Part shown: one piece after another, positions 2,801-41,077 of the stretch | How positions within the stretch are numbered: the first letter of the stretch is position 1 | Layout of the letters: each line of letters opens with the position of its first letter | From: Heterobilharzia americana | Taxonomy: Eukaryota > Platyhelminthes > Trematoda > Strigeidida > Schistosomatidae | Assembly (NCBI GenBank): GCA_944470555.2 | Contig: OX104127.1 | Span: 68,595,646-68,659,645, forward strand | Length of the DNA: 64,000 nucleotides | Direction: 5' to 3' | Notes under the pieces: model-generated | The model's input: only the letters and a program-made list of their open reading frames with translations | Database searches by the model: none | Told to the model about the DNA's origin: nothing | Translations under genes and position numbers: made by a program

Positions 2801-2838
2801 TCGACAACTGATTTCGGTCCATGACGAACACCAACTTG

Positions 2839-2842
<4 letters not shown>

Positions 2843-2903
<61 letters not shown>
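2843..2903. repeat. (TA)n microsatellite
   Basis: About 30 uninterrupted TA units. It produces spurious Tyr-Ile open frames on both strands. Confidence 0.95.
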
Positions 2904-2904
<1 letters not shown>

Positions 2905-5062: not shown

Positions 5063-5479
5063 AAGTAATAATGCTGGTGCTCGTCGATGAAACGTTTTAA
5101 TTAGGTTGGAAATTAAACGTGTGAGTCTATTATTGAACCAGAAACTTTTGTCATGCAAAGGTTCTTCCAGAATGTTGAAATTTTTTAAAGACCTCACTTG
5201 TAGTAGACACGTTAGTAAAGAAGCAGATCCTGACGGCTGTGCTTTGAACATATCAAACCACCTGTCCTATCCCACTTTGTCCGCACATTTGCAATAAAGA
5301 GTTTTGTTCAAAATTCACCGAGTTGTTTGCAAATATTTCAAATCCCTGGACCATTCACACAGTTTAGGCCCACATGGTATGTGGAGCTGTGTATTCACCG
5401 ATGATGCTGATGTTTTATGCCATCCATAAGCTAACATGTTTGACAAATAGTTTTCAGAAAACACCGTACTGACTGCTTT

Positions 5480-6640
5480 AAAAGATATTAAGATAGTCTC
5501 CGTACCTAATTCACGGACTCCAGGTGCATGTTAGGAATTTCCTCCGATTGCAGTTACTTCTCCTTTCATGAAAATAATGGATAAGTTAATACTACCTGTA
5601 CCTGAACCCTACTCAGTTTGCACATAAAAGCGGAAGAAGCACTCCAGATGTCACCATTGTCTATATCACAATACTGCTTGTAATCTTCATAGAAATGCTA
5701 AGTATGTCAGGTGTAACATTTAGACCACACTACAGCATTTGATTCTGTCCCAAGACATCTTTTGCTGGACAAGCTAAACAGGACACACACTAAGTTCTGG
5801 ATAATCAGCTGGCTGTATTCCTAGTTCTCTGAAGGGGAACAGCATACTGTTCACAGAGGGAAGACCTCCACCTAAATGCTTACTGAGCTTGATCTTTATC
5901 CCGGGTCTTTCTTCGCTCTTTCTACATGACTTAACACCTTCAACTGGTATCAGTTGCATTGAATATACTGATGACCTGACGGTTTTCATAACTATCTCCT
6001 CTACAACAGACTGCCCCTAAATGAACGGTTTCCTATCTACTGTTAGACGATGGTCCTTCATGAATGACCTTATGCTTCATTTTTCACAACGTCAGACCAT
6101 AAACTTCAGTTTTAGACATGAACACAACCTATGTAAACTGCTTAGTTCTCATGGTTTCTGTTCTATTGATAGTTGTGTATTGGAGAGTGTCACAAATGTG
6201 ATTTATCTCAATGTATGTTTTTCTTCGGACCTCTCCTGGTCCTCCCATATCTTACTAATCTTCAAAAGAATCTTCTGCCTAACTTCCTTTATTAGGAGGC
6301 TGGGAGTATTCGGTATAACTCAACCTCTACTCTTACGTTTAATGAACTCGTTCATCTCAACTGTTCTCCTCTCTTCCTTCCTGAGTTGCTGGAGAAAATA
6401 GACTATGTTGTGTTGCGTAGGACTTTGAAGATTGTCAGCAGAACAAGTAGTGTACCTGTAAACTTTCTAATTGAAATTGTTGTGAACAAACATCTTAACT
6501 CATGTAGATATCTGGTTGTAGTTATTTTATCAGATGACCAGGATGCTGTTCATTCAACCCTGTCTGCTTGCCAGTCATGAGGTAAAACCGTGATTGAGTG
6601 TATAGGACTTCATGCAGGTACTACGAAGTATAAAACTCTA
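5480..6640 (+). mobile_element. CR1-like LINE relic, reverse transcriptase
   Basis: Plus-strand translation in broken frames gives the order of a CR1-type RT: 'FAHKSGRST' near 5620, 'FDSVPRHLLLDKLN' near 5740, the catalytic box 'YTDDLTVF' near 5970, then an open frame at 6021-6401 with 'LSTVRRWS' and 'FSSDLSWSSHIL', and a final frame at 6386-6580 with 'RRTLKIVSRTSSVPV'. The box keeps both aspartates, but frameshifts and stops separate the blocks. Endonuclease and 3' tail were not found. The mirror copy is at 25186-26346. Confidence 0.7.
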
Positions 6641-6974
6641 CAATAGTGTAGTTAACTCGTCTGCTGTGTGATGAAGGAAGTATTAGAAATGAACTACTAA
6701 CTAATCAACTTCTATTTTTGAAAGCAAACTTGCCATTATCTATATATTGTGCATCGAATTGCTAATGTGATTGTTTACTCTGCATTTTCAAGGAAGTTAT
6801 GAATTTAGTGAATATTCTCATCTTTTTGTGTAATTTCTACTTATTTGATTTTGTTATTTGTACATATACTCTGTTTCTGTTCAACTGATGCTGCATAATA
6901 TGGTGAAAATTCTGTAGAGTATTCCCAAAATAGCTTTCAGAATAAGGCCATTATTACTATTAGTGTTACTATTA
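6641..6974. other. AT-rich stretch, nothing recognised
   Basis: No gene, RNA or named repeat is visible. The stretch is short and low in information. Confidence 0.4.
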
Positions 6975-7014
6975 TTCTCACCGAGTCCCGGTGGGGAACA
7001 ACATCACTCACTGA

Positions 7015-7086
7015 GAGGCAGGTACATCCAACTGACGAGTCCCAAATAGGACGAAATGCGCATCCTGGATTCCACTGCTAGCCATT
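7015..7086 (+). ncRNA. Hammerhead ribozyme (Smα SINE type), core intact
   Basis: The sequence fits the schistosome Smα hammerhead almost base for base. The core CTGACGA (form CUGANGA) is at 7032-7038. Stem II is GTCC 7039-7042 with GGAC 7049-7052 around the loop CAAATA. The second core GAAA is at 7053-7056. Stem III is the short palindrome ATGCGCAT at 7056-7063. Stem I is TCCA with TGGA plus an outer GCAG with CTGC. The predicted cleavage site is after ATC at 7064. All positions I regard as essential are present. The upstream 'gggaacaacatcactcactg' is shared with the copy near 29680, marking the SINE body. The mirror copy is at 24740-24811. Confidence 0.85.
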
Positions 7087-7090
7087 GCCC

Positions 7091-7555
7091 ATCATTACTA
7101 TACATTATTACCATTGTTACTATCATTAATATTAGTATGATATGTGAATTTCAACTATCGGTATGGATTCTGCATGTTTTCATGATACTTTCAAGCAAGT
7201 TGTAAATAATTCCCTTTACTAGCTAACTAAGTGAATTATCAGCAAGAATTCGTGGTTGCAAACTTAAGGACTATAAATAATTACAAGCTAAGTAAGTGCA
7301 ACTAATAAGCTCTTTGAAAAAAGTACAATCAATAAATAATAAGTTCGGTGGGCTGGCTGAACAAAGTATGAATATTTTAAATGTGACTGGTATATTTAAA
7401 ACAAAATAACCTTAACTTTTCTATATATTTTTAGCTATATACATTACACCGTTATTGAGTTGAAAGAAAATCTATTCAATATCATATGACATGAAATTAT
7501 TTCCACTAAAAGCTACTGATAACATAGAAAAATCGATAGAATTTAAAACATATCA
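7091..7555. other. AT-rich stretch, nothing recognised
   Basis: Short imperfect ATT repeats occur near 7100. I find no coding or RNA feature. Confidence 0.4.
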
Positions 7556-7669
7556 GATTTGTTTATTTGATTTATCATACACAGTGATACAGTATTAGTT
7601 ACTTCATAATAAATGATAATAGTAATAATAAATACTGTACCACTGTGTTATAAATCAAATAAACAAATG
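7556..7669. repeat. Hairpin repeat with about 40-bp inverted arms
   Basis: The arm starting 'gatttgtttatttgattta' and ending 'cagtatt' is repeated in reverse complement at about 7630-7669, with a roughly 34-base AT-rich loop. This resembles a small fold-back element (MITE-like), but no target duplication was established. The mirror copy is at 24157-24270. Confidence 0.7.
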
Positions 7670-7707
7670 TAATATGGGACTACATTCTACCAGAGTGCCG
7701 AAGTTTT

Positions 7708-8695
7708 AACCTCTCCAGGTTAACTAGTTCACTAGTTATTAGCAAGTCCTAAGCCCAGATAAAATGCGAAGGTTGGCCATAGGGCTGCCAACCCTATCCC
7801 GTAAAACCAATCCAATCGCTAAAGAAACTTAAAGGTACAAAGAAAATATAAAAAATAAAAATAGCTAATCCCCTCTGGAATCGGGAGACGAAAGGACGCC
7901 AGTTGGTGAGAGCCTTCAGGAAGCCAGTAGGCCGACGTGCCTTCTCTTCTCTCGATGGAAGCAAAAGTAAGAATGGTGACATGGAATGTCCGCACAATAT
8001 ATGAACCTAGCAAAGCTGCCCAGATTACAAAAGAGATGAGAAGGTATGACATGGAAGTGCTTGGAATCTGCGAAGAAACTGCAGATGGAATGGAAGTGGA
8101 CTTTCAAAACTGTCAACTGGAGAGCAGTCAAGAATCTACTCCAATATTGTCACACAGACGACAACCACAAGCACACTCATTGTTAGAGTGGCTATCATGA
8201 TGTCACCTACGGCATCGAAGGTTCTCATGCAGTGGAAACCAATCTCCCTCCTCCAGCATCACGATCATGATAGCAAGATGGATTCAACTGAAAAGGAAGG
8301 GAAGTCACAATCATACAATGCCAATGCTACGCACCTACAAATAATTCAGATGAAGAGAAGAATGAGGAATTCTACAGACAACTGCAATCAACATTAGACA
8401 AGACCCCAGCCCAGTTGGCGACGGTGATATCAAAATTAATTCCAATGGGTGACATGAATGTCAAACTGGGAGCAGACAACACAGGAAGAGAAATCAACCA
8501 TGGGTCGACAAGCACGCGGTGGAATGATGAACGAGAACAGAGAAGTGTTTGCAGATTTCTGCACATTCAACGATTTGGTGATTGGAGGCAGTGTGTACAA
8601 AGTAACATGGATTTCACCAGATCGGTCCATTGAATGTCAGATCAACTTCATTTCAATGTGAAGAAAGCTCAGATGCAGCCTGATGGACACAAGAT
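7708..8695 (+). mobile_element. LINE A 5' fragment (5' UTR and endonuclease)
   Basis: The block begins with the 5' sequence shared by all LINE A copies that retain it ('gttaactagt', then 'cctaagccc', a hairpin GGTTGGC/GCCAACC, then 'cgtaaaaccaatccaa'). The same start is seen on the minus strand ending at 13750 and 60572. The endonuclease part follows, and homology stops near 8695 where an S repeat begins. It is therefore the opposite end of the element from the RT-only copies. The mirror copy is at 23131-24118. Confidence 0.75.
7955..8661 (+). pseudogene. LINE A AP-endonuclease domain, frameshifted
   Basis: This would be the N-terminal target-nicking endonuclease of an RTE-type LINE polyprotein. 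From the ATG at 7955 the frame reads MEAKVRMVTWNVRT, where TWNVRT is the first conserved block of the family. Later blocks appear in two other frames: 'GDMNVKLGADNTG' near 8450, which contains the catalytic aspartate region, and 'FADFCTFNDLVIGGSVYKV' followed by 'TWISPDRS' up to about 8630. At least two frameshifts are needed to read all blocks, so no active enzyme is made. The mirror copy is at 23165-23871. Confidence 0.7.
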
Positions 8696-8764
8696 CAAGT
8701 TTTACGGTTATACTAAAGAATTTAAAATATTAATTACAAAATATGCTGGTCCCTTCGATATCAA

Positions 8765-8995
8765 GTTTATATTCATGACGGAATTACTGACATCCGTTAG
8801 AAGAAACGACAGGACTGGACAACTGTTTCACCCCCGTATGAGATTCATTAGCAGTGCGCATGTACGACCACACAAGGGATACAATGCAAGACCTTCGGAT
8901 TCCGTGACCAGCACGTTACTATTGACTTACTGGGTTGGAATTCGACGGTCCATATTTCCTTGTCTCTGTCAATTCGTGATATGGCGTCACCACCC
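8765..8995 (-). repeat. tRNA-derived repeat S
   Basis: It shares with 11560-11760 and 34048-34370 the phrases 'gacaactgtttca', 'cagtgcgcat', a reversed B-box-like 'ggattccgtgaccagcacgtt' and 'tgtcaattcgtgatat'. The polymerase III-like boxes read on the minus strand. It sits directly after the truncated LINE A piece. Confidence 0.65.
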
Positions 8996-9144
8996 AGTGT
9001 GACCGTTGAGTATTTAGTCTTGTGTCGGACTTGGTTCGCCCTACCGGGGACGACGTTCGATAAAAACTTCAGAAATCACATCTCAATGTAATTGGATGAA
9101 AGCCGCACTATGCTGAGAAATGAGAGAGGCAGGAAAACTTAGAC

Positions 9145-9325
9145 CAGCAGCTCATCGGTAACGTTCTCTTCACAAAACCTGAAGGTCCTCGTTTCGACTC
9201 TTAGTGGGATCATGAGAGCACACTGCCGAGGAGTTCCGTGCAAGGATGAAACGGCCATGCAGTTATTCCAAGTCTTAAATGGTTCTTCATCTGATGTCAA
9301 TCCGTGAGGAATGCTAACCGGAAAA
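9145..9325 (+). repeat. tRNA-derived repeat S, second copy, opposite orientation
   Basis: A-box-like 'cagctcatcggtaacg' and B-box-like 'gtttcgactc' are spaced as in a tRNA. They are followed by 'gaggagttcc', 'aggatgaaac' and 'gatgtcaatccgtgagg', which are the reverse complement of the neighbouring copy's phrases. The two S copies form a head-to-head pair. Confidence 0.65.
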
Positions 9326-9469
9326 TAAAATTCTCACAGACCTTCAAAACGAATTTTTAATATCATTTCATACATTTTAAACTTTGTAAGTCATACTGAA
9401 TGCAACGTGACCAGATTTATAAACCAATTTCTATGTGGTCAACTTTTTCATTGGGTATGATGAAGTGAG

Positions 9470-10178
9470 CATATTCTGTTTGGTGTGGGTTGCGTGTACC
9501 GCACAGTAGTCCGCTTTGTTCTACTCTATGGCTGTGAAACATGGTCATTGAAGGTGGAGGACATGAGAAGAATTCAGGTGTTTGACCACTGTTGCCTTCG
9601 TAGTATAGGCCAGATTCCGTGGTGCCACGACGTGAGTAACGCAGAAGTCAGACGTAGCGTTTCAGGAAGAAGTAAGTCAGTTGACATGGTTGTGAACCTT
9701 CATCGAATGAGATGGTTGGGACATGTGTTATGTATGCCTAGTCGCCGTCCGCCTCGTCATACAATGTTCACCGAAGCAGGTTCAGGCTGGAAAAAAGCCC
9801 GAGGCGGCCAAACCAAAACATGGCATCAATGTATGAAGTCTCTGACTGTTGGTTCGAGGCATGTGCAGCGATGTAGACTAACCGCTTGGGGTCCGCGGGA
9901 CAAGAAAAATCAGTGGCTGGAGACTCTAGGTGATATGGCTCAGAACCGATGTCAGTGGCGCAGATGTATACATACATTAACGACACCATACCAAATCTCA
10001 CCATTTTCTCATTCTTCCTTTCTCTCTTTTAGTACTTTATATTTCTTTTCACTGAATTTTCTTCTCTTCATCTCCCACTTCACTGCCTTTTTACTTGATG
10101 TACTGATATGAGGTGTGGCAACTCGGACCATTACGCAGTAATGCCTGGTCTTATGTTGATGGATGATGATGATGATGT
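9470..10178 (+). mobile_element. LINE B 3' fragment with (GATG)n tail
   Basis: A 5'-truncated non-LTR element that retains the C-terminal end of its polyprotein and its 3' UTR. It ends in the short GATGATGATG run at about 10160-10178, which resembles the simple-repeat tails of RTE-type elements. Related copies are at 14232-15060, 15680-16253, 37260-37885 and 63420-64000, and the mirror copy is at 21648-22356. Confidence 0.75.
9485..10111 (+). pseudogene. LINE B polyprotein C-terminus (208-codon open frame)
   Basis: The open frame begins inside the RT C-terminal region and reads 'LLYGCETWSLKVEDMRR', then 'RMRWLGHVLCMPSRRPPRH', 'GQTKTWHQCMKSL' and 'NQWLETLGDMAQNRCQW'. These blocks are typical of the C-terminal end of schistosome RTE-like RT proteins. 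The residues after about codon 172 run into 3' UTR and lose similarity. Palm and endonuclease domains are absent, so the piece has no catalytic capacity. It is the best preserved LINE B coding piece in the window, and both arms carry the identical open frame. Confidence 0.75.
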
Positions 10179-10211
10179 TTAGTGTGGGCTGTTTTCTGTA
10201 CATCTATGTAG

Positions 10212-10353
10212 GCAATACGTTTAATGAATTATTAAAGTTGACATCCTCCAATTTCCAAGACAATACTTTTGTACAAACGATAGGAAATCTAAATGAGCAT
10301 TTTAAGTCATCAGCCATGAATGCAGACGTTTTGGATTTCAACCTTGGTTTCAT
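10212..10353 (+). other. Exon-like coding fragment, unrecognised
   Basis: A 142-base block is bounded by an acceptor-like 'ctatgtag' and a donor-like 'gttaag'. Its open frame includes 'NTFVQTIGNLNEHFKSS' and 'LDFNLGF'. A diverged copy at about 18640-18756 (minus strand) keeps the frame open, with one silent change and three clustered replacements, which suggests past protein-coding constraint. I do not recognise the family. It could be a captured host exon, part of an unknown element or chance. The mirror copy is at 21473-21614. Confidence 0.35.
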
Positions 10354-11559
10354 GTTAAGATGTGCTCAGGAAAAACCTCATTGGATAACTTTGTCCTACA
10401 GTTGACCAATCAAAATAAGTATTAAACTTTCAACTTAATGGTTTTATAAGTTGATGAAAACTGTATATAAATGATGTATTTTTGTCAAATAAAGAGACCT
10501 CATTAGAGTCATGGACCGGTCATCGTCTTCTGATTTTCTCAGCTCAGTGAACTATAAGGTTCTCAGAGAGAATAGTTGCTTTTCGTATACCGTCCAAGTG
10601 TCTCATCGTGTTGTCATTGTTCAAATGTTTATTATTATCCACTCAGTCACTTCAGGGATTTCACGTCAGTTTGTGGAACTTAAGATGCAGTTCTTCACTT
10701 TCAAAGCATATGTTCATGAGAAATAATTGAGGTGGGGGGTTGAATAGAACAACTTTCTGAGCTAACCTACATGGAGTGAAACTTAAATGTAAGCTAAATA
10801 ACTTAGCCTAATAGCATGTGTTCTCCTAAGATTGGTTTTCAAGCATAAAACAGGTTTCTGTTATTATGGAAACGCAAGCTCACGTCGAAACCTTTTAAAG
10901 CTGAGCAGTTCGCCAACTCTCTAGCTGCGATACGACCTTGCTAAAGGCCATCGAGATAAGTTCATTGGTATAAAAGTCTCATAAACTAACAGAAAATATT
11001 CTACAGAAGAAAATGAGAAGTTAGTGGATGGTCACACTATTGTACAGTTACTTGGTGTTTGAAGAATAATGAAAGGATACACAGAGGTTGGGCTATGTTT
11101 GCCACTTCTGTGATGTGTGTGAAAAAATGGATAAATCTGGTATACTGAATATTGGAGACCGGTTATTATAATGATCATCTTAGCCCTGAATACTGACCAA
11201 AGACCATACACATCAAATTTCCCACCTGACTACTCGGTCACGTGATCAGATATTATGCTGTATTGTCTGGGATGTTTACAGAAAAATGATAGCCAGTTAC
11301 TGACCTTTGTTTCGCGCTTTATACTCACTGAACAACAGGTGACATTTACAAGTTCAGGGGAAATATAGTGTATGGGAATGACACAAAACTAACCTAAAAT
11401 CAATTCATAAACTTCCAGATGATTAGCTTCGAGAGATTATTCCCGAAGTTCTAATGAGAAGCAGTAACCAGTGGAGTTAGCTAAGTCGAACGTGTGGACA
11501 GTTACTCAACGACGATAATGGATGTAGGTTACTTTATATCGTGAACTGACAGAAGTAGG
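10354..11559. other. Unassigned arm sequence
   Basis: No coding exon or named repeat is supported. An open frame at 10511-10726 (71 codons) has no recognisable motif. Bases 10671-10692 recur joined to the exon-like fragment in the mosaic at 18465-18756. Confidence 0.4.
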
Positions 11560-11760
11560 AAATGTGGACGATTGGATTCCGACCGAGTAGGTCAATGGTA
11601 ACGTGCTGGCCACGGAACCTGAAGGCTCTGGGTTCAATCCGTGATGGGCTCATGGGCGCGGAATGCTGAAGAATCTCACAATAGGATGAAACAATTGTCC
11701 AATGCTCCCAGGTTCCCAATGTTTCTCCACCTGATGTTACTCCATGATGGATTCCAACCT
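11560..11760 (+). repeat. tRNA-derived repeat S, best-preserved boxes
   Basis: A-box-like 'taggtcaatggtaacgtg' and B-box-like 'gggttcaatccg' have tRNA-like spacing. The rest matches other S copies ('gaatgctgaagaatctcac', 'aggatgaaac'). One of the few arm differences, A at 11694 against the complement of C at 20132, lies inside it. The mirror copy is at 20066-20266. Confidence 0.7.
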
Positions 11761-12346
11761 AAGAACAAAGCCAGACATCTGAAAGTTCACGTGTTTCCTC
11801 GAGGTGAACTATGCTGACCATGGCCAGTTTACAACTGCTGGACACCATCATCAAAAATAAACATTAGGAAACTCATTCAAATCTTATCACTATTATAACT
11901 TCCTTTTGTTCAAGTGTACTAGCTTGAAATAAATAGAGATTATGTGACACAATAATTAAAAGTTTATGCCAATCAATACAGTTACCTTGACTGCTAGTTT
12001 CATTATTATTATTTGTCCCTTAAGTTCCAAGTGGAACATAGGGCTTCAGTAGCACGCCTCCATTGCACTCCATTCTCTGCAGTCTTTTGAACCTCGCTCA
12101 ATGACTGCCCACAATCTTTCATTTCTTCATCACACCATCTCGTCCATGTGACCCTCTCCTCGGACGCCCGACTCGTCGTTTCCCATCTGGGTTCCATTCA
12201 AGTACCTGGCCTGGCGCGTGATGTCCCCAGTCGGCCTTCTCAGTGAATGCCCAATCCATCTCCACTTCCTTCTGCACATTTGTTGAGCGATAGGTTGTTG
12301 GTTGGTTCGTTGCCAGTCAGAGTGAGTTCCTCGTCGCTTATTCTCA

Positions 12347-12700
12347 TCACTGTGGACATCTGAGCTTCAGTAACGAACCAGCATAGGCGGCAGTTATTGA
12401 TGAATATCTGTAGTTTGTTGGAAATCCCTTTCGTGACGCACTGCCGAGTATCTCAAACATATAGAAGCACTGGATTGACTGAATTATTGTTGAAAATCCG
12501 GATGTTGTTGACGCTTTATGGTGAGCGCAGAAGATCTCCACACTGGTTCTAGGTAAATCAACCCGTCTTGCAGTCTTTCCGATCCTGGCTGCTTTGACGT
12601 CCTCGTCTGTGCCTGTGTGACCTCTAGTTGAAACGATGCTGCCTAGATAGGTGAACGAGGCTACTTCCTTTAGGCTTCTTGCGTTGATGGTGAATGGAGC

Positions 12701-12759
<59 letters not shown>

Positions 12760-13063
12760 GGTGGTGGTGGTGGTGGTGGTGGTGGTGGTGGTGGTGGTGG
12801 TGGTGGTGGTGGTGGTGGTGGTGGTGGTGGTGGTGGTGGTGGTGGTGGTGGTGGTGGTGGTTGGATATCTTCATCACCTTTGTCTTCTCTTCATTCACTT
12901 GAAGTCCCGTCTTCCTTAGCTGCCTTGCCTCTACTGTCAACTTGTTAGTTTTTGCCTGTAGATCTTCGAGTTTGTGTGACATCAGACACCAACCATAATC
13001 GGCGAAATCCAAATCTTCTAGGTTCTTTTCCCTGGTCCAGCCAGCGTATCCTCCTCTTCTCAC
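12347..13063 (-). pseudogene. LINE A RT fragment with giant His/Gln run
   Basis: A 238-codon open frame covers the RT palm end and thumb: 'LDFADYGWCLMS', 'VNEEKTKVMKI', then about 39 CAC (His) and 15 CAA (Gln) codons, then 'VASFTYLGSIVSTRG'. The catalytic box reads FADY instead of FADD (12995-13006), so the second metal-binding aspartate is lost. The His/Gln run lies between two conserved RT blocks, where LINE A copies 1, 2 and 4 carry much shorter runs. It is therefore an expanding microsatellite inside a dead gene, not a real poly-His protein. The right arm carries the same frame with 21 fewer His codons. Confidence 0.8.
12701..12860. repeat. (TTG)15(GTG)39 compound microsatellite
   Basis: A pure triplet tract gives long Cys/Trp, Val/Gly and Leu/Val shadow frames on the plus strand. 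It is 63 bp longer than its mirror at about 19028-19125. Confidence 0.9.
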
Positions 13064-13750
13064 TCCTCACAGTTAGCTGCATGATCCATTCCAGTCGACC
13101 ACAATCACGAATATCATGGGTGATAGTAGATAACCTTGTCTTACTCCTGTCTTCACTGCGAAGGCATCTCTGAGCTTCCCATTGTGAATTACTTGGCATG
13201 TTGTGTCTTCATATAGTTGTTGAATGAGATTGATAAATGTTTGTGGTATTCCGTAGTGTTGAAGCATTTTTCAAATTACCTCTCAGTTGAGGCTGCCAAA
13301 GGCCTTCTCAAAGTCGATGAAGTTGAGGTTGAGTTGAGTTGACAGTCATTCTATGCCTCGTTCTATGATGATGCATAGCGTAGTGTTGCAATTTGATCCG
13401 CACATGATTTGTTCTTCCACAAGCCAGTCAGTCAGTCTGATCCGGTGGCAATTTTGAATTCAGAGTAATATTTAGTCTCTCCAGGATGATGTGGCTTAAT
13501 ATTTTTCTTGGGGTGGACACATCGGCCGACTGACTTCCCGAAGGCTTTCACCAACCCGCATTATCTTGTCGCTCCAATTCCAGCGAGGAATATGTTTGTT
13601 GTTTTTTTTATAATTTTCTATGCTTTGATGTTTCTTTAGCGGTTGGATTGGTTTTACGGTTTAGGGTTGCTAACCCTATATCCAACCTTCCCTCTTTACC
13701 CGGGCTTAGACCTGGCTAGTAACTAGTGTACTAGTTAACCAGACAAGGTT

Positions 13751-14231
13751 GACTGCTAATTTATTTGGTGAAATTGATTTCAGATCAATATATTTATTGA
13801 ATACATTGAGGGTATGACTCATCTAATTACGCTTTTATTCAACCAACATTTAAAACGATTTAAAAACCACTATTTTGCAAAGTTTACAAGATATAAGTGA
13901 TACACATTTAGTTGAAAACTGGTATTGAAATAATCGTTTGAAAATTGACATCACATGTAGTATCACATATTTTAGGTCATAATGAGTTTATTAACTTGAC
14001 TTAAAGTTTGCGTCATTTATGAAACGAAACAAAGATTGGACTGAATAAAAACAAAGATGTCCTTGAAAGTAAGTTTCTTCGAGTTTGAAATTTCGAAGAA
14101 GTGAACCTCCGTAAACTATTTCGAAGTCGAACCCATAACTTGCGGAGTGACTGAAGAAAAATCATCGTAAAACCTTGTATACAAGGGTATCGACTCAAGT
14201 TGCCACAATTCACAGTAGGACACATAAAATA
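13751..14231. other. Spacer sequence, probable LINE B 3' flank
   Basis: AT-rich. The right part (about 14150-14231) resembles the LINE B 3' UTR also seen near 37270-37340 ('caatt.ac.gtag.acac'). No gene is seen in the rest. Confidence 0.4.
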
Positions 14232-16253: not shown

Positions 16254-16331
16254 TGTTGACTGGAGGATGTCGCTTGCGTCGGCTGTTCAGTGCTTCTGAA
16301 TTCCCAGTGGTTCGCTAGATGAAGATGATGT

Positions 16332-18464
16332 ATTATTACCATATAATTATTTTTCCTTAAGCTTCCTAGTGGGAAAAAGAGATTCAGTAACACGTCACCA
16401 TTTCACTCTCTTCTCCGCAGTCTTTCCAATCTGACGCTACCACTGCCCAGAAGCCCTCATTTCTTCCTCACACCAACTCCTCCATGTCATCCTCTCCTCG
16501 GACGCCTAACTCGTCGTTTCCCATTCGGCTTCCACTCGACGGTCTGGCTTGGCGCGTGATGTCCTCGAATAGCCTCCTCAGTTTATGCCCAATCTATCTC
16601 CACTTCCTTCTGCATATTCGTTGGACGATAGGTTGCTGGTTGGTTCGTTGCCAGCCAGAGTGAGTTCCTTGCCGCTTGTTCTTATTATTCCGGCCATCTG
16701 GTCTTCAGTATCTAGCGAGCGTAGGCGGCAGCTTTTGATAATGCATGTCTGTAGTTTGTTGCAAATACTTTTCGTAACGCGCCGCCAAGTCTCTCAAACA
16801 TATTGAAGCACTGACTTGACCGACATTAGTGTTGAAAATCCGGATCTTGTTCACGCTTTATGCTGAGTCGAGTTCAGTAGATCTGCACACTGATTTCAGG
16901 TTAACGAACGCCTGCCTTGCTTTTCAGATCCTGGTTTCGATATCATCATCTGTGCCGCCTCTTGTAGTTGAGACGATGCTGCCCAGGCAGGTGAAAGAGA
17001 CAACTTCATTTAGATTTCCCCCGTTCATGGTGATTGGTGCTTGTTGTTGTTGTTGTTGTTGGTGGTGGTGTTGGTTGGGTATTTTCATCACCTCTGTCTT
17101 CTCCACGTTCACCTGAAGGAGATCTCGTATTCGCTACCTCGTCTCCTCTGCCAACTTGTTAGTTTTCGCCTGTAGATCTTCGAGTTTGTACGACAAGACA
17201 TTAAACATAAATCATCATCGGCGAAACCCAAATCTTCTAGACTCCCTTCATCGGTCTGGCCAGCGTATGCCCATCTTCTCACAGCTCCTCACAGTCTCTT
17301 GCATGATCCAGTCCACTCGAGTCGACCACAACCAGGAAGATCATCTGTGATAGTAGGTGGCAACCTTGTCTTACTCCTGTATTCACTTCAAAGGCATCTC
17401 TGAGCTTTTCACTGCCAATCACTTGACTGGCATGTAGCATCATCGTCATGAAGCATATAGCTGTTGAATGAGGTTGATAAGGGTTTGTGGCACTAAAACC
17501 GAGGTGTTGAAGTAGCTGCCTGACAAATTATTTCTCGGTCAACGCTATCGAAGACCTTTTCAAAGTCGATGAAGTTGAGGTTGAGTTGAGTTGACAGTCA
17601 TTCTATGCCTCGTTCTATGATGATGCATAGCGTAGTGTTGCAATTTGATCCGCACATGATTTGTTCTTCCACAAGCCAGTCAGTCAGTCTGATCCGGTGG
17701 CAATTTTGAATTCAGAGCATTGTTTAGTCTCTCTGCAGGATGATGCGGCCTAATATCTTGGTTGCTTTGAGTGGACTGGGACGGGAGGATGATTCCGCGC
17801 CAGTTCTTGCGAAGACTGATGTCGCCCACGCTTGTTTTGGAGTTTGACAAGGTAGCTCTTCTTCCAATCAGCAGGCAACTTTCCTTCCTTCCTACCAAAC
17901 CTTCTACAGTGGAAGTGGTATGGGCATGTCCACTGGTGTCTCTGCATTTGTTTTCAGTGCTTCTGGAGAAATTCCATCTGGTCCTGTTGCTTCCCCTGAT
18001 TGCAGCAGTTTTATGGCATTCAGGACTTAAATTCTGCATTTGTCGGAGGGTTTGTGTTCACTGATAGTTCCGTGGCTGCACTGCTGGTGGTATTTGTGGA
18101 CTAGTTGCAGGTGCTGGTGGTGGTGGTGGTGGTGGTCGACTCAAGAGATTTTTGAAGTGGTCAGCCCATCGTTTCTTTGTTTCTCCTCTCTGGTGGTAAT
18201 CAGGTTCCCTTCACTATCTCTGATTGACTTCTTCTGAGTTGATCTCTTCCCTCCCAGATAGTAAGTAACCTGGTTATTTGATATGAAGTTGTCTGGTCTG
18301 TGTCTCTCCTACCAGCAGCCTGTTGTGCTTCACTTGCCAGTGTGTCGTAGAAGTGTCTTTTGTCTTTGCGCGTACTCTTCTTCCCTTCTTTGTCTGGTGT
18401 AGTGATTTATAGGTTGTGTTCAGTTGCTCTATTTGTTGTTCATCCGTAAACTGTACTATACTGA
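16332..18464 (-). mobile_element. LINE A copy 2, 5'-truncated
   Basis: A minus-strand copy of LINE A with its 3' tail near 16332 (TATTATTACC). It repeats 1-1978 almost perfectly as 16499-18464; offsets change only at the Gln run (12 bp shorter), near 17883 (+1) and near 18172 (-1). It carries FADD, the short His/Gln run (three His, seven Gln) and the same stops as copy 1, so copies 1 and 2 share a recent common source that was already dead. It ends abruptly at 18464, where the mosaic junction begins. Confidence 0.85.
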
Positions 18465-18756
18465 ATTATGCTTCGCGTTACTTTCTCTGCTCATTCAGTT
18501 TTCATGTGTTCGTCGAGATCCATTCCTTATCTTGCTTTTTCGGTCTTCCTCACGCTGTTATCCAGTTCTACTTTCATTTCTCTCTCAGAGAGGTCTATGA
18601 AGGTTCTTCAGGGATGTTGCCTAATGTCTCCCATCTTAAGTTCCACAAACTGAAACCAAGGTTGAAATCCAAAATTTTTACATTCATGGCTGATGACTTA
18701 AAATGCTCATTTAGATTTCCAATCGTTTGTACAAAAGTATTGTCTTGGAAGTTGGC
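18465..18756 (-). other. Mosaic junction sequence beside the right arm
   Basis: Read on the minus strand, this 292-base filler contains a roughly 92%-similar copy of the exon-like fragment (10236-10352), joined directly to about 20 bases matching 10671-10692, then sequence I cannot place. The join has a TCA microhomology at the breakpoint rather than a GT-AG splice. The frame stays open from 'NTFVQTIGNLNEHFKSS' through 'LDFNLGFSLWNLRWETLGN'. It separates truncated LINE A copy 2 from the truncated end of LINE A copy 3, as expected of filler at a rearrangement junction. Confidence 0.5.
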
Positions 18757-18825
18757 TATCTACTATCACCCATGATATTCGTGATTGTGGTCGACTGGAA
18801 TGGATCATGCAGCTAACTGTGAGGA

Positions 18826-19066
18826 GTGAGAAGAGGAGGATACGCTGGCTGGACCAGGGAAAAGAACCTAGAAGATTTGGATTTCGCCGATTATGGTTGG
18901 TGTCTGATGTCACACAAACTCGAAGATCTACAGGCAAAAACTAACAAGTTGACAGTAGAGGCAAGGCAGCTAAGGAAGACGGGACTTCAAGTGAATGAAG
19001 AGAAGACAAAGGTGATGAAGATATCCAACCACCACCACCACCACCACCACCACCACCACCACCACC

Positions 19067-19125
<59 letters not shown>

Positions 19126-19479
19126 GCTCCATTCACCATCAACGCAAGAAGCCTAAAGGAAGTAGCCTCGTTCACCTATCTAGGCAGCATCGTTTCAACT
19201 AGAGGTCACACAGGCACAGACGAGGACGTCAAAGCAGCCAGGATCGGAAAGACTGCAAGACGGGTTGATTTACCTAGAACCAGTGTGGAGATCTTCTGCG
19301 CTCACCATAAAGCGTCAACAACATCCGGATTTTCAACAATAATTCAGTCAATCCAGTGCTTCTATATGTTTGAGATACTCGGCAGTGCGTCACGAAAGGG
19401 ATTTCCAACAAACTACAGATATTCATCAATAACTGCCGCCTATGCTGGTTCGTTACTGAAGCTCAGATGTCCACAGTGA
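18826..19479 (+). pseudogene. LINE A RT fragment with shorter His run (mirror)
   Basis: A 217-codon open frame identical to the left-arm frame apart from 21 fewer His codons. The catalytic box is again FADY (18883-18894). The shared inactivating change shows that it predates the inverted duplication. Confidence 0.8.
19028..19125. repeat. (CAC)18(CAA)15 compound microsatellite
   Basis: The mirror of the 12701-12860 tract, 63 bp shorter. It is the main length difference between the arms. Confidence 0.9.
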
Positions 19480-20065
19480 TGAGAATAAGCGACGAGGAAC
19501 TCACTCTGACTGGCAACGAACCAACCAACAACCTATCGCTCAACAAATGTGCAGAAGGAAGTGGAGATGGATTGGGCATTCACTGAGAAGGCCGACTGGG
19601 GACATCACGCGCCAGGCCAGGTACTTGAATGGAACCCAGATGGGAAACGACGAGTCGGGCGTCCGAGGAGAGGGTCACATGGACGAGATGGTGTGATGAA
19701 GAAATGAAAGATTGTGGGCAGTCATTGAGCGAGGTTCAAAAGACTGCAGAGAATGGAGTGCAATGGAGGCGTGCTACTGAAGCCCTATGTTCCACTTGGA
19801 ACTTAAGGGACAAATAATAATAATGAAACTAGCAGTCAAGGTAACTGTATTGATTGGCATAAACTTTTAATTATTGTGTCACATAATCTCTATTTATTTC
19901 AAGCTAGTACACTTGAACAAAAGGAAGTTATAATAGTGATAAGATTTGAATGAGTTTCCTAATGTTTATTTTTGATGATGGTGTCCAGCAGTTGTAAACT
20001 GGCCATGGTCAGCATAGTTCACCTCGAGGAAACACGTGAACTTTCAGATGTCTGGCTTTGTTCTT

Positions 20066-20266
20066 AGGTTGGAATCCATCATGGAGTAACATCAGGTGGA
20101 GAAACATTGGGAACCTGGGAGCATTGGACAACTGTTTCATCCTATTGTGAGATTCTTCAGCATTCCGCGCCCATGAGCCCATCACGGATTGAACCCAGAG
20201 CCTTCAGGTTCCGTGGCCAGCACGTTACCATTGACCTACTCGGTCGGAATCCAATCGTCCACATTT
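20066..20266 (-). repeat. tRNA-derived repeat S (mirror)
   Basis: The mirror of 11560-11760. It carries the C at 20132 that distinguishes the arms. Confidence 0.7.
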
Positions 20267-21472
20267 CCTACTTCTGTCAGTTCACGATATAAAGTAACCT
20301 ACATCCATTATCGTCGTTGAGTAACTGTCCACACGTTCGACTTAGCTAACTCCACTGGTTACTGCTTCTCATTAGAACTTCGGGAATAATCTCTCGAAGC
20401 TAATCATCTGGAAGTTTATGAATTGATTTTAGGTTAGTTTTGTGTCATTCCCATACACTATATTTCCCCTGAACTTGTAAATGTCACCTGTTGTTCAGTG
20501 AGTATAAAGCGCGAAACAAAGGTCAGTAACTGGCTATCATTTTTCTGTAAACATCCCAGACAATACAGCATAATATCTGATCACGTGACCGAGTAGTCAG
20601 GTGGGAAATTTGATGTGTATGGTCTTTGGTCAGTATTCAGGGCTAAGATGATCATTATAATAACCGGTCTCCAATATTCAGTATACCAGATTTATCCATT
20701 TTTTCACACACATCACAGAAGTGGCAAACATAGCCCAACCTCTGTGTATCCTTTCATTATTCTTCAAACACCAAGTAACTGTACAATAGTGTGACCATCC
20801 ACTAACTTCTCATTTTCTTCTGTAGAATATTTTCTGTTAGTTTATGAGACTTTTATACCAATGAACTTATCTCGATGGCCTTTAGCAAGGTCGTATCGCA
20901 GCTAGAGAGTTGGCGAACTGCTCAGCTTTAAAAGGTTTCGACGTGAGCTTGCGTTTCCATAATAACAGAAACCTGTTTTATGCTTGAAAACCAATCTTAG
21001 GAGAACACATGCTATTAGGCTAAGTTATTTAGCTTACATTTAAGTTTCACTCCATGTAGGTTAGCTCAGAAAGTTGTTCTATTCAACCCCCCACCTCAAT
21101 TATTTCTCATGAACATATGCTTTGAAAGTGAAGAACTGCATCTTAAGTTCCACAAACTGACGTGAAATCCCTGAAGTGACTGAGTGGATAATAATAAACA
21201 TTTGAACAATGACAACACGATGAGACACTTGGACGGTATACGAAAAGCAACTATTCTCTCTGAGAACCTTATAGTTCACTGAGCTGAGAAAATCAGAAGA
21301 CGATGACCGGTCCATGACTCTAATGAGGTCTCTTTATTTGACAAAAATACATCATTTATATACAGTTTTCATCAACTTATAAAACCATTAAGTTGAAAGT
21401 TTAATACTTATTTTGATTGGTCAACTGTAGGACAAAGTTATCCAATGAGGTTTTTCCTGAGCACATCTTAAC
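20267..21472. other. Unassigned arm sequence (mirror)
   Basis: The mirror of 10354-11559. No gene is recognised. Confidence 0.4.
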
Positions 21473-21614
21473 ATGAAACCAAGGTTGAAATCCAAAACGT
21501 CTGCATTCATGGCTGATGACTTAAAATGCTCATTTAGATTTCCTATCGTTTGTACAAAAGTATTGTCTTGGAAATTGGAGGATGTCAACTTTAATAATTC
21601 ATTAAACGTATTGC
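21473..21614 (-). other. Exon-like coding fragment (mirror)
   Basis: The mirror of 10212-10353, with the same frame and the same splice-like borders. Confidence 0.35.
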
Positions 21615-21647
21615 CTACATAGATGTACAGAAAACAGCCCACACTAA

Positions 21648-22356
21648 ACATCATCATCATCATCCATCAACATAAGACCAGGCATTACTGCGTAATGGTC
21701 CGAGTTGCCACACCTCATATCAGTACATCAAGTAAAAAGGCAGTGAAGTGGGAGATGAAGAGAAGAAAATTCAGTGAAAAGAAATATAAAGTACTAAAAG
21801 AGAGAAAGGAAGAATGAGAAAATGGTGAGATTTGGTATGGTGTCGTTAATGTATGTATACATCTGCGCCACTGACATCGGTTCTGAGCCATATCACCTAG
21901 AGTCTCCAGCCACTGATTTTTCTTGTCCCGCGGACCCCAAGCGGTTAGTCTACATCGCTGCACATGCCTCGAACCAACAGTCAGAGACTTCATACATTGA
22001 TGCCATGTTTTGGTTTGGCCGCCTCGGGCTTTTTTCCAGCCTGAACCTGCTTCGGTGAACATTGTATGACGAGGCGGACGGCGACTAGGCATACATAACA
22101 CATGTCCCAACCATCTCATTCGATGAAGGTTCACAACCATGTCAACTGACTTACTTCTTCCTGAAACGCTACGTCTGACTTCTGCGTTACTCACGTCGTG
22201 GCACCACGGAATCTGGCCTATACTACGAAGGCAACAGTGGTCAAACACCTGAATTCTTCTCATGTCCTCCACCTTCAATGACCATGTTTCACAGCCATAG
22301 AGTAGAACAAAGCGGACTACTGTGCGGTACACGCAACCCACACCAAACAGAATATG
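21648..22356 (-). mobile_element. LINE B 3' fragment (mirror)
   Basis: The mirror of 9470-10178. The 208-codon open frame at 21715-22341 is identical to the left-arm frame. Confidence 0.75.
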
Positions 22357-22500
22357 CTCACTTCATCATACCCAATGAAAAAGTTGACCACATAGAAATT
22401 GGTTTATAAATCTGGTCACGTTGCATTCAGTATGACTTACAAAGTTTAAAATGTATGAAATGATATTAAAAATTCGTTTTGAAGGTCTGTGAGAATTTTA

Positions 22501-22681
22501 TTTTCCGGTTAGCATTCCTCACGGATTGACATCAGATGAAGAACCATTTAAGACTTGGAATAACTGCATGGCCGTTTCATCCTTGCACGGAACTCCTCGG
22601 CAGTGTGCTCTCATGATCCCACTAAGAGTCGAAACGAGGACCTTCAGGTTTTGTGAAGAGAACGTTACCGATGAGCTGCTG
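22501..22681 (-). repeat. tRNA-derived repeat S (mirror)
   Basis: The mirror of 9145-9325. Confidence 0.65.
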
Positions 22682-22830
22682 GTCTAAGTTTTCCTGCCTC
22701 TCTCATTTCTCAGCATAGTGCGGCTTTCATCCAATTACATTGAGATGTGATTTCTGAAGTTTTTATCGAACGTCGTCCCCGGTAGGGCGAACCAAGTCCG
22801 ACACAAGACTAAATACTCAACGGTCACACT

Positions 22831-23061
22831 GGGTGGTGACGCCATATCACGAATTGACAGAGACAAGGAAATATGGACCGTCGAATTCCAACCCAGTAAG
22901 TCAATAGTAACGTGCTGGTCACGGAATCCGAAGGTCTTGCATTGTATCCCTTGTGTGGTCGTACATGCGCACTGCTAATGAATCTCATACGGGGGTGAAA
23001 CAGTTGTCCAGTCCTGTCGTTTCTTCTAACGGATGTCAGTAATTCCGTCATGAATATAAAC
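22831..23061 (+). repeat. tRNA-derived repeat S (mirror)
   Basis: The mirror of 8765-8995. Confidence 0.65.
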
Positions 23062-23130
23062 TTGATATCGAAGGGACCAGCATATTTTGTAATTAATATT
23101 TTAAATTCTTTAGTATAACCGTAAAACTTG

Positions 23131-24118
23131 ATCTTGTGTCCATCAGGCTGCATCTGAGCTTTCTTCACATTGAAATGAAGTTGATCTGACATTCAATGGA
23201 CCGATCTGGTGAAATCCATGTTACTTTGTACACACTGCCTCCAATCACCAAATCGTTGAATGTGCAGAAATCTGCAAACACTTCTCTGTTCTCGTTCATC
23301 ATTCCACCGCGTGCTTGTCGACCCATGGTTGATTTCTCTTCCTGTGTTGTCTGCTCCCAGTTTGACATTCATGTCACCCATTGGAATTAATTTTGATATC
23401 ACCGTCGCCAACTGGGCTGGGGTCTTGTCTAATGTTGATTGCAGTTGTCTGTAGAATTCCTCATTCTTCTCTTCATCTGAATTATTTGTAGGTGCGTAGC
23501 ATTGGCATTGTATGATTGTGACTTCCCTTCCTTTTCAGTTGAATCCATCTTGCTATCATGATCGTGATGCTGGAGGAGGGAGATTGGTTTCCACTGCATG
23601 AGAACCTTCGATGCCGTAGGTGACATCATGATAGCCACTCTAACAATGAGTGTGCTTGTGGTTGTCGTCTGTGTGACAATATTGGAGTAGATTCTTGACT
23701 GCTCTCCAGTTGACAGTTTTGAAAGTCCACTTCCATTCCATCTGCAGTTTCTTCGCAGATTCCAAGCACTTCCATGTCATACCTTCTCATCTCTTTTGTA
23801 ATCTGGGCAGCTTTGCTAGGTTCATATATTGTGCGGACATTCCATGTCACCATTCTTACTTTTGCTTCCATCGAGAGAAGAGAAGGCACGTCGGCCTACT
23901 GGCTTCCTGAAGGCTCTCACCAACTGGCGTCCTTTCGTCTCCCGATTCCAGAGGGGATTAGCTATTTTTATTTTTTATATTTTCTTTGTACCTTTAAGTT
24001 TCTTTAGCGATTGGATTGGTTTTACGGGATAGGGTTGGCAGCCCTATGGCCAACCTTCGCATTTTATCTGGGCTTAGGACTTGCTAATAACTAGTGAACT
24101 AGTTAACCTGGAGAGGTT
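23131..24118 (-). mobile_element. LINE A 5' fragment (mirror)
   Basis: The mirror of 7708-8695. It includes the frameshifted endonuclease (23165-23871, starting at an ATG whose first base is 23871) and the conserved 5' hairpin. Confidence 0.75.
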
Positions 24119-24156
24119 AAAACTTCGGCACTCTGGTAGAATGTAGTCCCATATTA

Positions 24157-24270
24157 CATTTGTTTATTTGATTTATAACACAGTGGTACAGTATTTATTA
24201 TTACTATTATCATTTATTATGAAGTAACTAATACTGTATCACTGTGTATGATAAATCAAATAAACAAATC
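24157..24270. repeat. Hairpin repeat (mirror)
   Basis: The mirror of 7556-7669. Confidence 0.7.
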
Positions 24271-24739
24271 TGATATGTTTTAAATTCTATCGATTTTTCT
24301 ATGTTATCAGTAGCTTTTAGTGGAAATAATTTCATGTCATATGATATTGAATAGATTTTCTTTCAACTCAATAACGGTGTAATGTATATAGCTAAAAATA
24401 TATAGAAAAGTTAAGGTTATTTTGTTTTAAATATACCAGTCACATTTAAAATATTCATACTTTGTTCAGCCAGCCCACCGAACTTATTATTTATTGATTG
24501 TACTTTTTTCAAAGAGCTTATTAGTTGCACTTACTTAGCTTGTAATTATTTATAGTCCTTAAGTTTGCAACCACGAATTCTTGCTGATAATTCACTTAGT
24601 TAGCTAGTAAAGGGAATTATTTACAACTTGCTTGAAAGTATCATGAAAACATGCAGAATCCATACCGATAGTTGAAATTCACATATCATACTAATATTAA
24701 TGATAGTAACAATGGTAATAATGTATAGTAATGATGGGC

Positions 24740-24811
24740 AATGGCTAGCAGTGGAATCCAGGATGCGCATTTCGTCCTATTTGGGACTCGTCAGTTGGAT
24801 GTACCTGCCTC
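24740..24811 (-). ncRNA. Hammerhead ribozyme (mirror), core intact
   Basis: The mirror of 7015-7086. CTGACGA, GAAA and the cleavage triplet ATC are all preserved on the minus strand. Confidence 0.85.
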
Positions 24812-25185
24812 TCAGTGAGTGATGTTGTTCCCCACCGGGACTCGGTGAGAATAATAGTAACACTAATAGTAATAATGGCCTTATTCTGAAAGCTATTTTG
24901 GGAATACTCTACAGAATTTTCACCATATTATGCAGCATCAGTTGAACAGAAACAGAGTATATGTACAAATAACAAAATCAAATAAGTAGAAATTACACAA
25001 AAAGATGAGAATATTCACTAAATTCATAACTTCCTTGAAAATGCAGAGTAAACAATCACATTAGCAATTCGATGCACAATATATAGATAATGGCAAGTTT
25101 GCTTTCAAAAATAGAAGTTGATTAGTTAGTAGTTCATTTCTAATACTTCCTTCATCACACAGCAGACGAGTTAACTACACTATTG

Positions 25186-26346
25186 TAGAGTTTTATACTT
25201 CGTAGTACCTGCATGAAGTCCTATACACTCAATCACGGTTTTACCTCATGACTGGCAAGCAGACAGGGTTGAATGAACAGCATCCTGGTCATCTGATAAA
25301 ATAACTACAACCAGATATCTACATGAGTTAAGATGTTTGTTCACAACAATTTCAATTAGAAAGTTTACAGGTACACTACTTGTTCTGCTGACAATCTTCA
25401 AAGTCCTACGCAACACAACATAGTCTATTTTCTCCAGCAACTCAGGAAGGAAGAGAGGAGAACAGTTGAGATGAACGAGTTCATTAAACGTAAGAGTAGA
25501 GGTTGAGTTATACCGAATACTCCCAGCCTCCTAATAAAGGAAGTTAGGCAGAAGATTCTTTTGAAGATTAGTAAGATATGGGAGGACCAGGAGAGGTCCG
25601 AAGAAAAACATACATTGAGATAAATCACATTTGTGACACTCTCCAATACACAACTATCAATAGAACAGAAACCATGAGAACTAAGCAGTTTACATAGGTT
25701 GTGTTCATGTCTAAAACTGAAGTTTATGGTCTGACGTTGTGAAAAATGAAGCATAAGGTCATTCATGAAGGACCATCGTCTAACAGTAGATAGGAAACCG
25801 TTCATTTAGGGGCAGTCTGTTGTAGAGGAGATAGTTATGAAAACCGTCAGGTCATCAGTATATTCAATGCAACTGATACCAGTTGAAGGTGTTAAGTCAT
25901 GTAGAAAGAGCGAAGAAAGACCCGGGATAAAGATCAAGCTCAGTAAGCATTTAGGTGGAGGTCTTCCCTCTGTGAACAGTATGCTGTTCCCCTTCAGAGA
26001 ACTAGGAATACAGCCAGCTGATTATCCAGAACTTAGTGTGTGTCCTGTTTAGCTTGTCCAGCAAAAGATGTCTTGGGACAGAATCAAATGCTGTAGTGTG
26101 GTCTAAATGTTACACCTGACATACTTAGCATTTCTATGAAGATTACAAGCAGTATTGTGATATAGACAATGGTGACATCTGGAGTGCTTCTTCCGCTTTT
26201 ATGTGCAAACTGAGTAGGGTTCAGGTACAGGTAGTATTAACTTATCCATTATTTTCATGAAAGGAGAAGTAACTGCAATCGGAGGAAATTCCTAACATGC
26301 ACCTGGAGTCCGTGAATTAGGTACGGAGACTATCTTAATATCTTTT
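25186..26346 (-). mobile_element. CR1-like LINE relic (mirror)
   Basis: The mirror of 5480-6640, with the same YTDD box and the same frame breaks. Confidence 0.7.
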
Positions 26347-26763
26347 AAAGCAGTCAGTACGGTGTTTTCTGAAAACTATTTGTCAAACATGTTAGCTTAT
26401 GGATGGCATAAAACATCAGCATCATCGGTGAATACACAGCTCCACATACCATGTGGGCCTAAACTGTGTGAATGGTCCAGGGATTTGAAATATTTGCAAA
26501 CAACTCGGTGAATTTTGAACAAAACTCTTTATTGCAAATGTGCGGACAAAGTGGGATAGGACAGGTGGTTTGATATGTTCAAAGCACAGCCGTCAGGATC
26601 TGCTTCTTTACTAACGTGTCTACTACAAGTGAGGTCTTTAAAAAATTTCAACATTCTGGAAGAACCTTTGCATGACAAAAGTTTCTGGTTCAATAATAGA
26701 CTCACACGTTTAATTTCCAACCTAATTAAAACGTTTCATCGACGAGCACCTGCATTATTACTT

Positions 26764-41073: not shown

Positions 41074-41077
41074 AAAT

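Follow-up and report, generated by a model that had tools for sequence, protein, structure and literature searches.

The human Y-chromosome palindrome P6 and its kin have arms that are more than 99.9% alike around a unique spacer, with conversion tracts several kilobases long and occasional inversion by crossover between the arms (PMC3723533). Excerpts from reports of complex rearrangements attributed to microhomology-mediated break-induced replication (MMBIR; PMC2621351) and of the PLP1 DUP-TRP/INV-DUP type (PMC4352052) describe adjacent inverted and direct duplications, short template jumps, junction overlaps of a few bp and endpoints in or near repeats. Interlocus gene conversion of duplicated genes, as excerpted in PMC3924818, is a non-reciprocal copying between paralogous regions. 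Closer in phylogeny, the W-elements of Schistosoma mansoni are repeats of another schistosomatid, and some of them contain hammerhead ribozymes and parts of LINEs (PMC8490949).

The locus described here, from the schistosomatid fluke Heterobilharzia americana, resembles each of these in part. It has the near-identical arms and unique spacer of P6 and its kin, and we infer both conversion and crossover inversion from one assembly; unlike those palindromes, its 8-kb arms consist of dead transposons, yielded no gene, lie in an intron and show no G+C excess (PMC3723533). It shares the features listed above with the MMBIR and PLP1 cases, but it stands in a reference genome, is seemingly overlaid by later conversion and has a copy-number order that is not of the triplication type (PMC2621351, PMC4352052, in the parts available). 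The non-reciprocal copying of interlocus conversion appears to recur here, although between non-coding inverted and direct repeats made of retrotransposon relics (PMC3924818, in excerpt). In contrast to the W-elements, which are satellite-like sequences on the W chromosome that also have some autosomal copies, the present structure is a local long inverted repeat (PMC8490949). No report of a comparable structure in a flatworm was found among the titles and abstract openings searched.

Geometry, content and host intron

The window is a stretch of 64,000 bp; 114 kb were examined in all, and negative coordinates denote positions upstream of window base 1. Self-BLAST and base-by-base comparison revealed that the left arm (5063-13132, + strand, 8,070 bp) and the right arm (R; 18757-26763, - strand, 8,007 bp) are reverse complements on either side of an unstranded 5,624-bp spacer (13133-18756). 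The coordinate sum is constant at 31826 for 5063-12798 against 26763-19028 and at 31889 for 12807-13132 against 19082-18757. These sums agree exactly with the original prediction, which had also given the sizes correctly as 8-kb arms and a 5.6-kb spacer. The alignment of the arms (bit score 14,275, E = 0) rules out chance, and homology is lost abruptly at all four arm ends. The predicted 63-bp triplet contraction and two base differences were likewise found. The contraction is a difference in a (TGG)n tract, with about 39 units on the left against 18 on the right ((TTG)15(TGG)39 at 12701-12861, + strand; right-arm counterpart (ACC)18(CAA)15 at 19028-19125), while the two substitutions, at 5075 and 11694, are the only ones between the arms, which are 99.97% identical with the triplet tract excluded. 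Neither the window nor the 114 kb contains any N.

The arms hold dead transposons, and the spacer is mostly RTE relics together with a tract, X3, considered below. A Pfam scan of the right arm in six frames gave no domain above the cut-off, transposase domains included; its single sub-threshold match was glycine-rich. G+C content was 40.5 and 40.3% in the arms and 42.3% in the spacer; the arms, being no richer than the spacer, thus bear no trace of GC-biased conversion. Raised G+C, which some palindromes show, is not a required feature of them, however, since the human examples include several whose arms do not differ significantly (PMC3723533).

The whole complex sits within one GT-AG intron of a CD36-family gene, of which it occupies 37,563 of 42,126 bp; the preceding exon ends at -12200 and the last exon spans 29927-30421 (+ strand). 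The contig, C1, is 162.6 Mb long; palindromes maintained by conversion typically, though not necessarily, lie on sex chromosomes. Each arm carries a type I hammerhead ribozyme, at 7026-7070 on the left (+ strand, sense to the gene) and at 24756-24800 on the right (- strand, antisense to it). As a control, 30 kb around a CD36 paralogue on contig C4 yielded two self-matches of at least 100 bp, the longest an inverted pair of only 545 bp at 97%, so no repeat of comparable size exists there.

Part of the left arm is also repeated upstream in direct orientation, at -5347..-706, within the first unit of a 10.4-kb tandem duplication. This unit, U1 (-10799..-706), lies entirely upstream of the window and carries an identical copy of the hammerhead at -3384; the second, U2 (-704..9704, + strand), enters the window at 1-9704. 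Because U2 includes part of the left arm, 5063-9704 is present three times, in U1, U2 and R. U1 and U2 differ by 0.78%.

Polarity of the ends and the right inner junction

The four ends comprise two that lie in unbroken transposons and two that are broken. At the right outer end a CR1/Perere-like LINE (about 25210-27770) continues uninterrupted. Searching the genome with 26700-27300 (best 40 of 436 candidates scored), we found that 39 of 61 other rows cross this end and that the remaining 22 fall entirely on its far side. The left outer end behaved in the opposite manner: when 4760-5360 served as query (best 40 of 1,916 candidates scored), U1 and U2 alone continued across it, and the right arm and all 37 other places begin at 5061 or later, none crossing. 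In an alignment of LINE copies, 9 of 9 agreed with an intact right outer end and a cut left one. On these comparisons, the left outer end is a derived breakpoint that cuts the CR1/Perere-like LINE. Weaker matches (58-62%) to the same LINE copies also occur in the left flank, where 3009-3778 is a distinct relic lying in the opposite orientation.

The polarity is reversed at the inner ends. On the left, an RTE LINE runs uninterrupted across 13132, as judged against X2, X3, K58 and E70. On the right, with 18440-18780 as the query (best 40 of 938 candidates scored), none of the 37 non-arm places extends beyond 18637. In this one assembly, therefore, the native outer end is on the right and the native inner end on the left, an opposition best explained, from transposon continuity, by a crossover that would have inverted the spacer between the arms or else by one-sided conversion.

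The broken right inner junction is a templated patch (18632-18755, - strand) of two pieces from the arm. Its first piece, 18632-18653, is the reverse complement of 10666-10687 at 22 of 22 positions, and the second, 18651-18755, agrees with that of 10248-10352 at 99 of 105. The two pieces overlap by 3 bp, and the last joint contains one base that fits neither side. Such few-bp microhomology and short templated inserts are hallmarks of MMBIR-type junctions. The possibility that the 105-bp piece is a dispersed repeat was rejected, as the genome search with 18440-18780 (best 40 of 938 candidates scored) matched it at no other place but the two arms; within the 114-kb stretch, the shorter piece of 22 bp also recurs only in the arms.

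Discordance among the repeated copies

Although U1 and U2, which share the cut left outer end, are 0.78% apart, U2 and R differ over 5063-9704 at 1 of 4,642 sites. Of 13 variable sites among the three copies, 12 separate U1 and 1 is private to R; under a three-way split with equal rates, the chance that 12 of 13 fall on a given branch named beforehand is P = 1.7e-5 (three times this for any branch), an argument that a faster U1 would weaken. Polarised against seven LINE copies, 6 of the 12 changed in U1, 2 clearly and 1 probably are changes common to U2 and R, and 3 are ambiguous. The remaining site, 5075, was considered as an old difference retained by U1 and U2, a reading that was rejected: 7 of 7 LINE copies carry the U1/U2 base, so the change lies in R. 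The stretch 6376-9704 is identical in U1, U2 and R, while elsewhere U1 departs from U2 at 53 of about 6,757 sites, and none of 20,000 shuffles produced an identical run like it. In a tree of the arm copies, U2+R received support of only 77/76 and a U1+U2 clade was not rejected (p-AU 0.153). That U2 almost matches R, yet stands 0.78% from U1, points to arm-to-arm gene conversion, which we regard with good confidence as having happened.

A similar discordance marks a 2.4-kb tract, X2 (-445..1978, + strand; 1-1978 in the window), and its counterpart in the spacer, X3 (16053-18464, + strand), which matches it with 0 substitutions and 3 indels. Between 644 and 1976, 4 derived substitutions are common to X2 and X3 and absent from X1, 6 changes are private to X1, 1 is ambiguous and none groups X1 with X2. 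In a tree of four rows, X2+X3 was supported at 94/92 and an X1+X2 clade was rejected at a p-AU of 0.038, just below 0.05. Independent retrotransposon insertion of X2 and X3 is disfavoured, as about 220-280 bp beyond the RTE are also common to both. Both ends of X3 lie in register within diverged RTE sequence. The X2/X3 pattern, like that of the arms, points to conversion, and X3 is read as a conversion tract.

The original prediction took stops and frameshifts shared by the arms as a sign of a young duplication. This argument fails, since conversion erases age. As the left outer breakpoint is common to U1 and U2, themselves 0.78% apart, the inverted duplication probably predates what 99.97% identity implies, and the arms are probably older than they look.

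History of the locus and its meaning

We favour, with reasonable confidence, an old inverted repeat, a later U1/U2 duplication and continued recombination between the arms. About 8 kb of LINE-rich DNA from the right locus would have been copied once, at some time in the past, and inserted the other way round at the left locus, within this one intron; copying would have terminated in short template jumps that resemble replication-based repair. The left locus would then have been duplicated in tandem to give U1 and U2, and the U2 left arm and the right arm would have recombined ever since, gene conversion holding them at 99.97% identity. One crossover between the arms probably inverted the spacer, which would leave the native outer end on the right and the native inner end on the left; granted conversion, we lean only slightly towards this flip. 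The sequence itself shows the repeat, its two intact and two broken ends, the patch, the discordant counts and the host intron; what came first, which way the copying ran and whether the spacer flipped are matters we infer. The flip argument rests on transposon continuity at the ends, which one-sided conversion also fits.

In that alternative, which we consider less likely, an older, shorter inverted repeat, whose outer part had been copied in the right-to-left direction, was later extended without a flip: repair of a break at the right locus used the U2 arm as template, copying ran beyond the old homology to 13132, and template jumps followed. No crossover is then needed for the mixed intact and broken ends or for the close match between U2 and R, and the X2/X3 tract offers a parallel case. 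Copying that ended in jumps would make the right inner junction recent, however, and 6 of 105 positions in the patch depart from its source against 2 in about 8,000 in the adjoining arm, so a recent patch would require error-prone synthesis. One recent inverted duplication that was never followed by conversion is unlikely, despite its agreement with the templated junction and with just 2 substitutions in about 8 kb: U1 and U2 both have the derived left outer end, which shows that the left arm predates their split, and the outer ends point to a different source arm from the inner ends. Our first idea, one recent event copying U2 into X3 and the right arm, which we took to be a DUP-NML-INV pattern, fails because the right outer end lies within an unbroken LINE.

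Among the three readings offered by the original prediction, the palindrome maintained by gene conversion thus fits best, the breakpoint common to U1 and U2 disfavours the recent duplication, and an assembly or haplotype artefact, whether mis-joined reads or alleles set side by side, is distinctly unlikely. The orientation of a spacer between near-identical 8-kb arms is hard to phase, and U1 and U2, at 0.78%, could be alleles; if they were alleles wrongly placed in tandem, the discordance argument would stand and the tandem duplication would fall. A palindrome made by a missed adapter would lack the 5.6-kb spacer. Against an artefact, too, are the gap-free 114 kb, four distinct flanks with one intact and one broken end at both the outer and the inner pair, a broken left end in two diverged copies, and a templated patch with its own mutations. 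Finally, an internal segment flanked by long inverted ends might suggest a single mobile element with 8-kb terminal inverted repeats. This is extremely improbable given the lack of a target-site duplication (the outer flanks share no 7-mer), an outer end inside an unbroken LINE, only three full copies of the arm piece 7000-7400 genome-wide, every one of them local, and the absence of a transposase domain from the six frames of the right arm.

The locus provides a natural experiment on conversion between inverted repeats, in which a third tandem copy, partly outside the converting pair, acts as a clock and so partly solves the problem of the hidden age of identical arms. It also puts a possible 8-kb RNA hairpin, together with sense hammerhead ribozymes, into the intron of a receptor gene. 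A far more speculative reading, to which we give very little weight, is that the repeat functions as an RNA hairpin locus, in which the arms of the CD36-family pre-mRNA would fold into an 8-kb near-perfect double strand. The siRNAs bound by Argonaute 2 in S. japonicum, a fluke of the same family, derive chiefly from LINE and LTR elements (PMC3409120). If the reading were true, the hairpin would feed the fluke's endogenous siRNA pathway against its own LINEs, and conversion would keep the hairpin perfect.

The inverted repeat and its host gene

Self-comparison of the window bore out, to the base, the original prediction of an inverted repeat between a left arm at 5063-13132 and a right arm at 18757-26763, with coordinate sums of 31826 and then 31889. 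The two base differences claimed between the arms are substitutions at 5075 and 11694, and the claimed 63-bp contraction proved to be the sole difference in arm length, located in a (TGG)n tract. No N bases were found in the window or in the 114-kb stretch formed by the window and its neighbours. A (CAC)n(CAA)n tract, a His/Gln run within the RTE frame (12701-12861, 19028-19125, 543-589 and 17028-17075), varies in length between the arms and between X2 (-445 to 1978; negative coordinates lie upstream of window base 1) and X3 (16053-18464), two RTE-containing tracts; both pairs are otherwise near-identical. Elsewhere, two imperfect self-palindromes (57490-57731 and 7549-7676, 79-80%) and an inverted LINE-like pair 26 kb apart (37326-37802 and 63493-63969, 98% alike) were detected. 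A Gypsy-type LTR element, with reverse transcriptase in 42081-43226, and a decayed second copy, 72-73% similar, occupy 40641-51105; segments 40641-41073 and 45862-46294, 97% alike, are perhaps its LTRs.

The window was placed at C1:68595646-68659645 within the 665-Mb genome of Heterobilharzia americana (Schistosomatidae); P0053, a protein bearing this species' name, has a 100% match on C1. CD36-family exons were matched on the + strand upstream (-13194 to -12200, profile 3-348, two overlapping matches) and downstream (29918-30256, profile 346-460), and the exon query was 100% identical to H. americana proteins P0089 (100% of the query) and P0090 (97%). The intervening intron, -12199 to 29926, spans 42,126 bp with GT-AG ends, and both public proteins read through the splice (...PHFLN then ANESYQ...). 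Because these exons flank it at -12200 and 29927, the whole complex, -10799 to 26763, lies inside one intron. The CD36 paralogue on C4 has its match broken at the same place too (profile 345 to 349, the two parts lying about 27 kb from each other), and in the intron of this paralogue (C4:2739000-2748999) a spacer of some 230 bp separates a 545-bp inverted pair, 97% alike. Near -12830, the reading frame shifts between the two upstream exon matches; P0089 reads through this point and P0090 begins downstream. Either a short intron, an allelic variant or an error in the assembly would account for the change. A six-frame Pfam scan of the right arm for a gene gave no matches over the cut-off.

Polarity of the ends

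At the right outer end, a LINE classed as CR1/Perere-like by its protein motifs runs from about 25210 to 27770 with no break. Genome searches scored the best 40 candidates, to which all counts of rows and places refer. The right outer boundary was crossed by 39 of 61 other rows (22 lay wholly beyond), and all nine fetched LINE copies align uninterrupted across it; three of these (L029-L031) are one very similar C3 group, and the nine are not all independent. With 4760-5360 as query, whole-length matches were found only at the tandem units U1 (-10799 to -706) and U2 (-704 to 9704), the latter including part of the left arm; the right-arm match began at 5063, and all 37 other places began at 5061 or later, as did the nine fetched copies on the left side. 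This left outer breakpoint is common to U1 and U2. The LINE is unbroken at the right outer end and cut at the left, and therefore the left outer end is derived.

The inner ends have the opposite polarity, the left being native and the right cut: an RTE LINE passes 13132 without a break, collinear with X2, X3 and the RTE comparison sequences K58 and E70, and is cut at 18757. Next to the cut, 18632-18653 is the reverse complement of 10687-10666, and 18651-18755 matches the reverse complement of 10352-10248 at 99 of 105 bases, with four of the six mismatches within 6 bases. Among the matches listed, this 105-bp patch occurs elsewhere in the genome only in the arms. Base 18756 agrees with neither side of the junction. 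Replication-based repair is described as leaving templated junctions of such a kind (PMC2621351) and, judged by its sequence, the right inner junction is of this type.

Age versus identity

A search with 7000-7400 returned three full-length matches, all local, and at least 43 shorter ones, mostly about 100-147 bp. The third copy sits in the direct tandem duplication U1/U2, whose joint seems to hold a one-base insertion. The two units carry 53 differences in about 6,757 aligned bases as far as 6375, after which 3,329 bases are identical. If the left arm predates the U1/U2 split, divergence between U2 and the right arm is expected to be no lower than that between U1 and U2. Over 4,642 sites, U2 and the right arm differ at 1, U1 and U2 at 12. 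When these 12 were polarised with seven LINE copies, 6 had changed in U1, 2 clearly and 1 probably were changes common to U2 and the right arm, and 3 were unresolved. The arm tree weakly favoured U2 with the right arm (support 77/76) and did not reject U1 with U2 (p-AU 0.153). The X2/X3 pair repeats this pattern more firmly. X2 and X3 (16053-18464) show no substitutions between them; over 644-1976, with K58 as the outgroup, 4 substitutions are derived in both but not in X1, a third copy, from which a shared 4-bp deletion also sets them apart, while 6 sites are private to X1 and 1 is unresolved. The tree rejected X1 with X2 (p-AU 0.038; X2 with X3, support 94/92). X3 begins and ends within diverged RTE sequence that stays in register, as a conversion tract would give. 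Taken together, these comparisons favour gene conversion between U2 and the right side, later than the U1/U2 split; were U1 and U2 alleles mistakenly placed in tandem, the discordance argument would apply equally to alleles. In the spacer, an inverted 165-bp pair (14231-14395 and 16090-16254), 96% alike within a longer RTE match of about 72%, is perhaps another small conversion tract.

In the favoured mechanism, the right locus would have been copied in inverted orientation into the left locus, which would then have been duplicated in tandem; the arms would have kept recombining, with conversion, and one crossover between them would have flipped the spacer, swapping the inner flanks. Behaviour of the proposed kind is described for the human P6 palindrome, with arm divergence of about 0.02%, a mean tract length of 2,068 bp and inversions that are rare (PMC3723533). 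Given a flip, the patch, 6% from its source, might show the true age of the duplication, because conversion could miss a piece this short. Alternatively, conversion without a flip could have run beyond the old homology, in which case the patch is recent and error-prone synthesis is required. An assembly artefact is unlikely in view of the templated patch and the broken ends.

Hammerheads and a candidate RNA hairpin

An approximately 110-bp piece carrying a type I hammerhead ribozyme (7000-7110, also present in U1 and in the right arm) is dispersed genome-wide; several of the at least 43 shorter matches beyond the three local full copies are paired at one place. The hammerheads at -3384 (U1) and 7026 (left arm) are sense to the CD36-family gene, and within its transcript two would be sense and one antisense. 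Such a transcript would include the two arms, which could pair as a hairpin some 8 kb long. Schistosoma japonicum Argonaute 2 is described as binding siRNAs derived chiefly from LINE and LTR elements (PMC3409120); we therefore raise, as a reading of low probability, that the hairpin may feed an endogenous siRNA pathway against LINEs.
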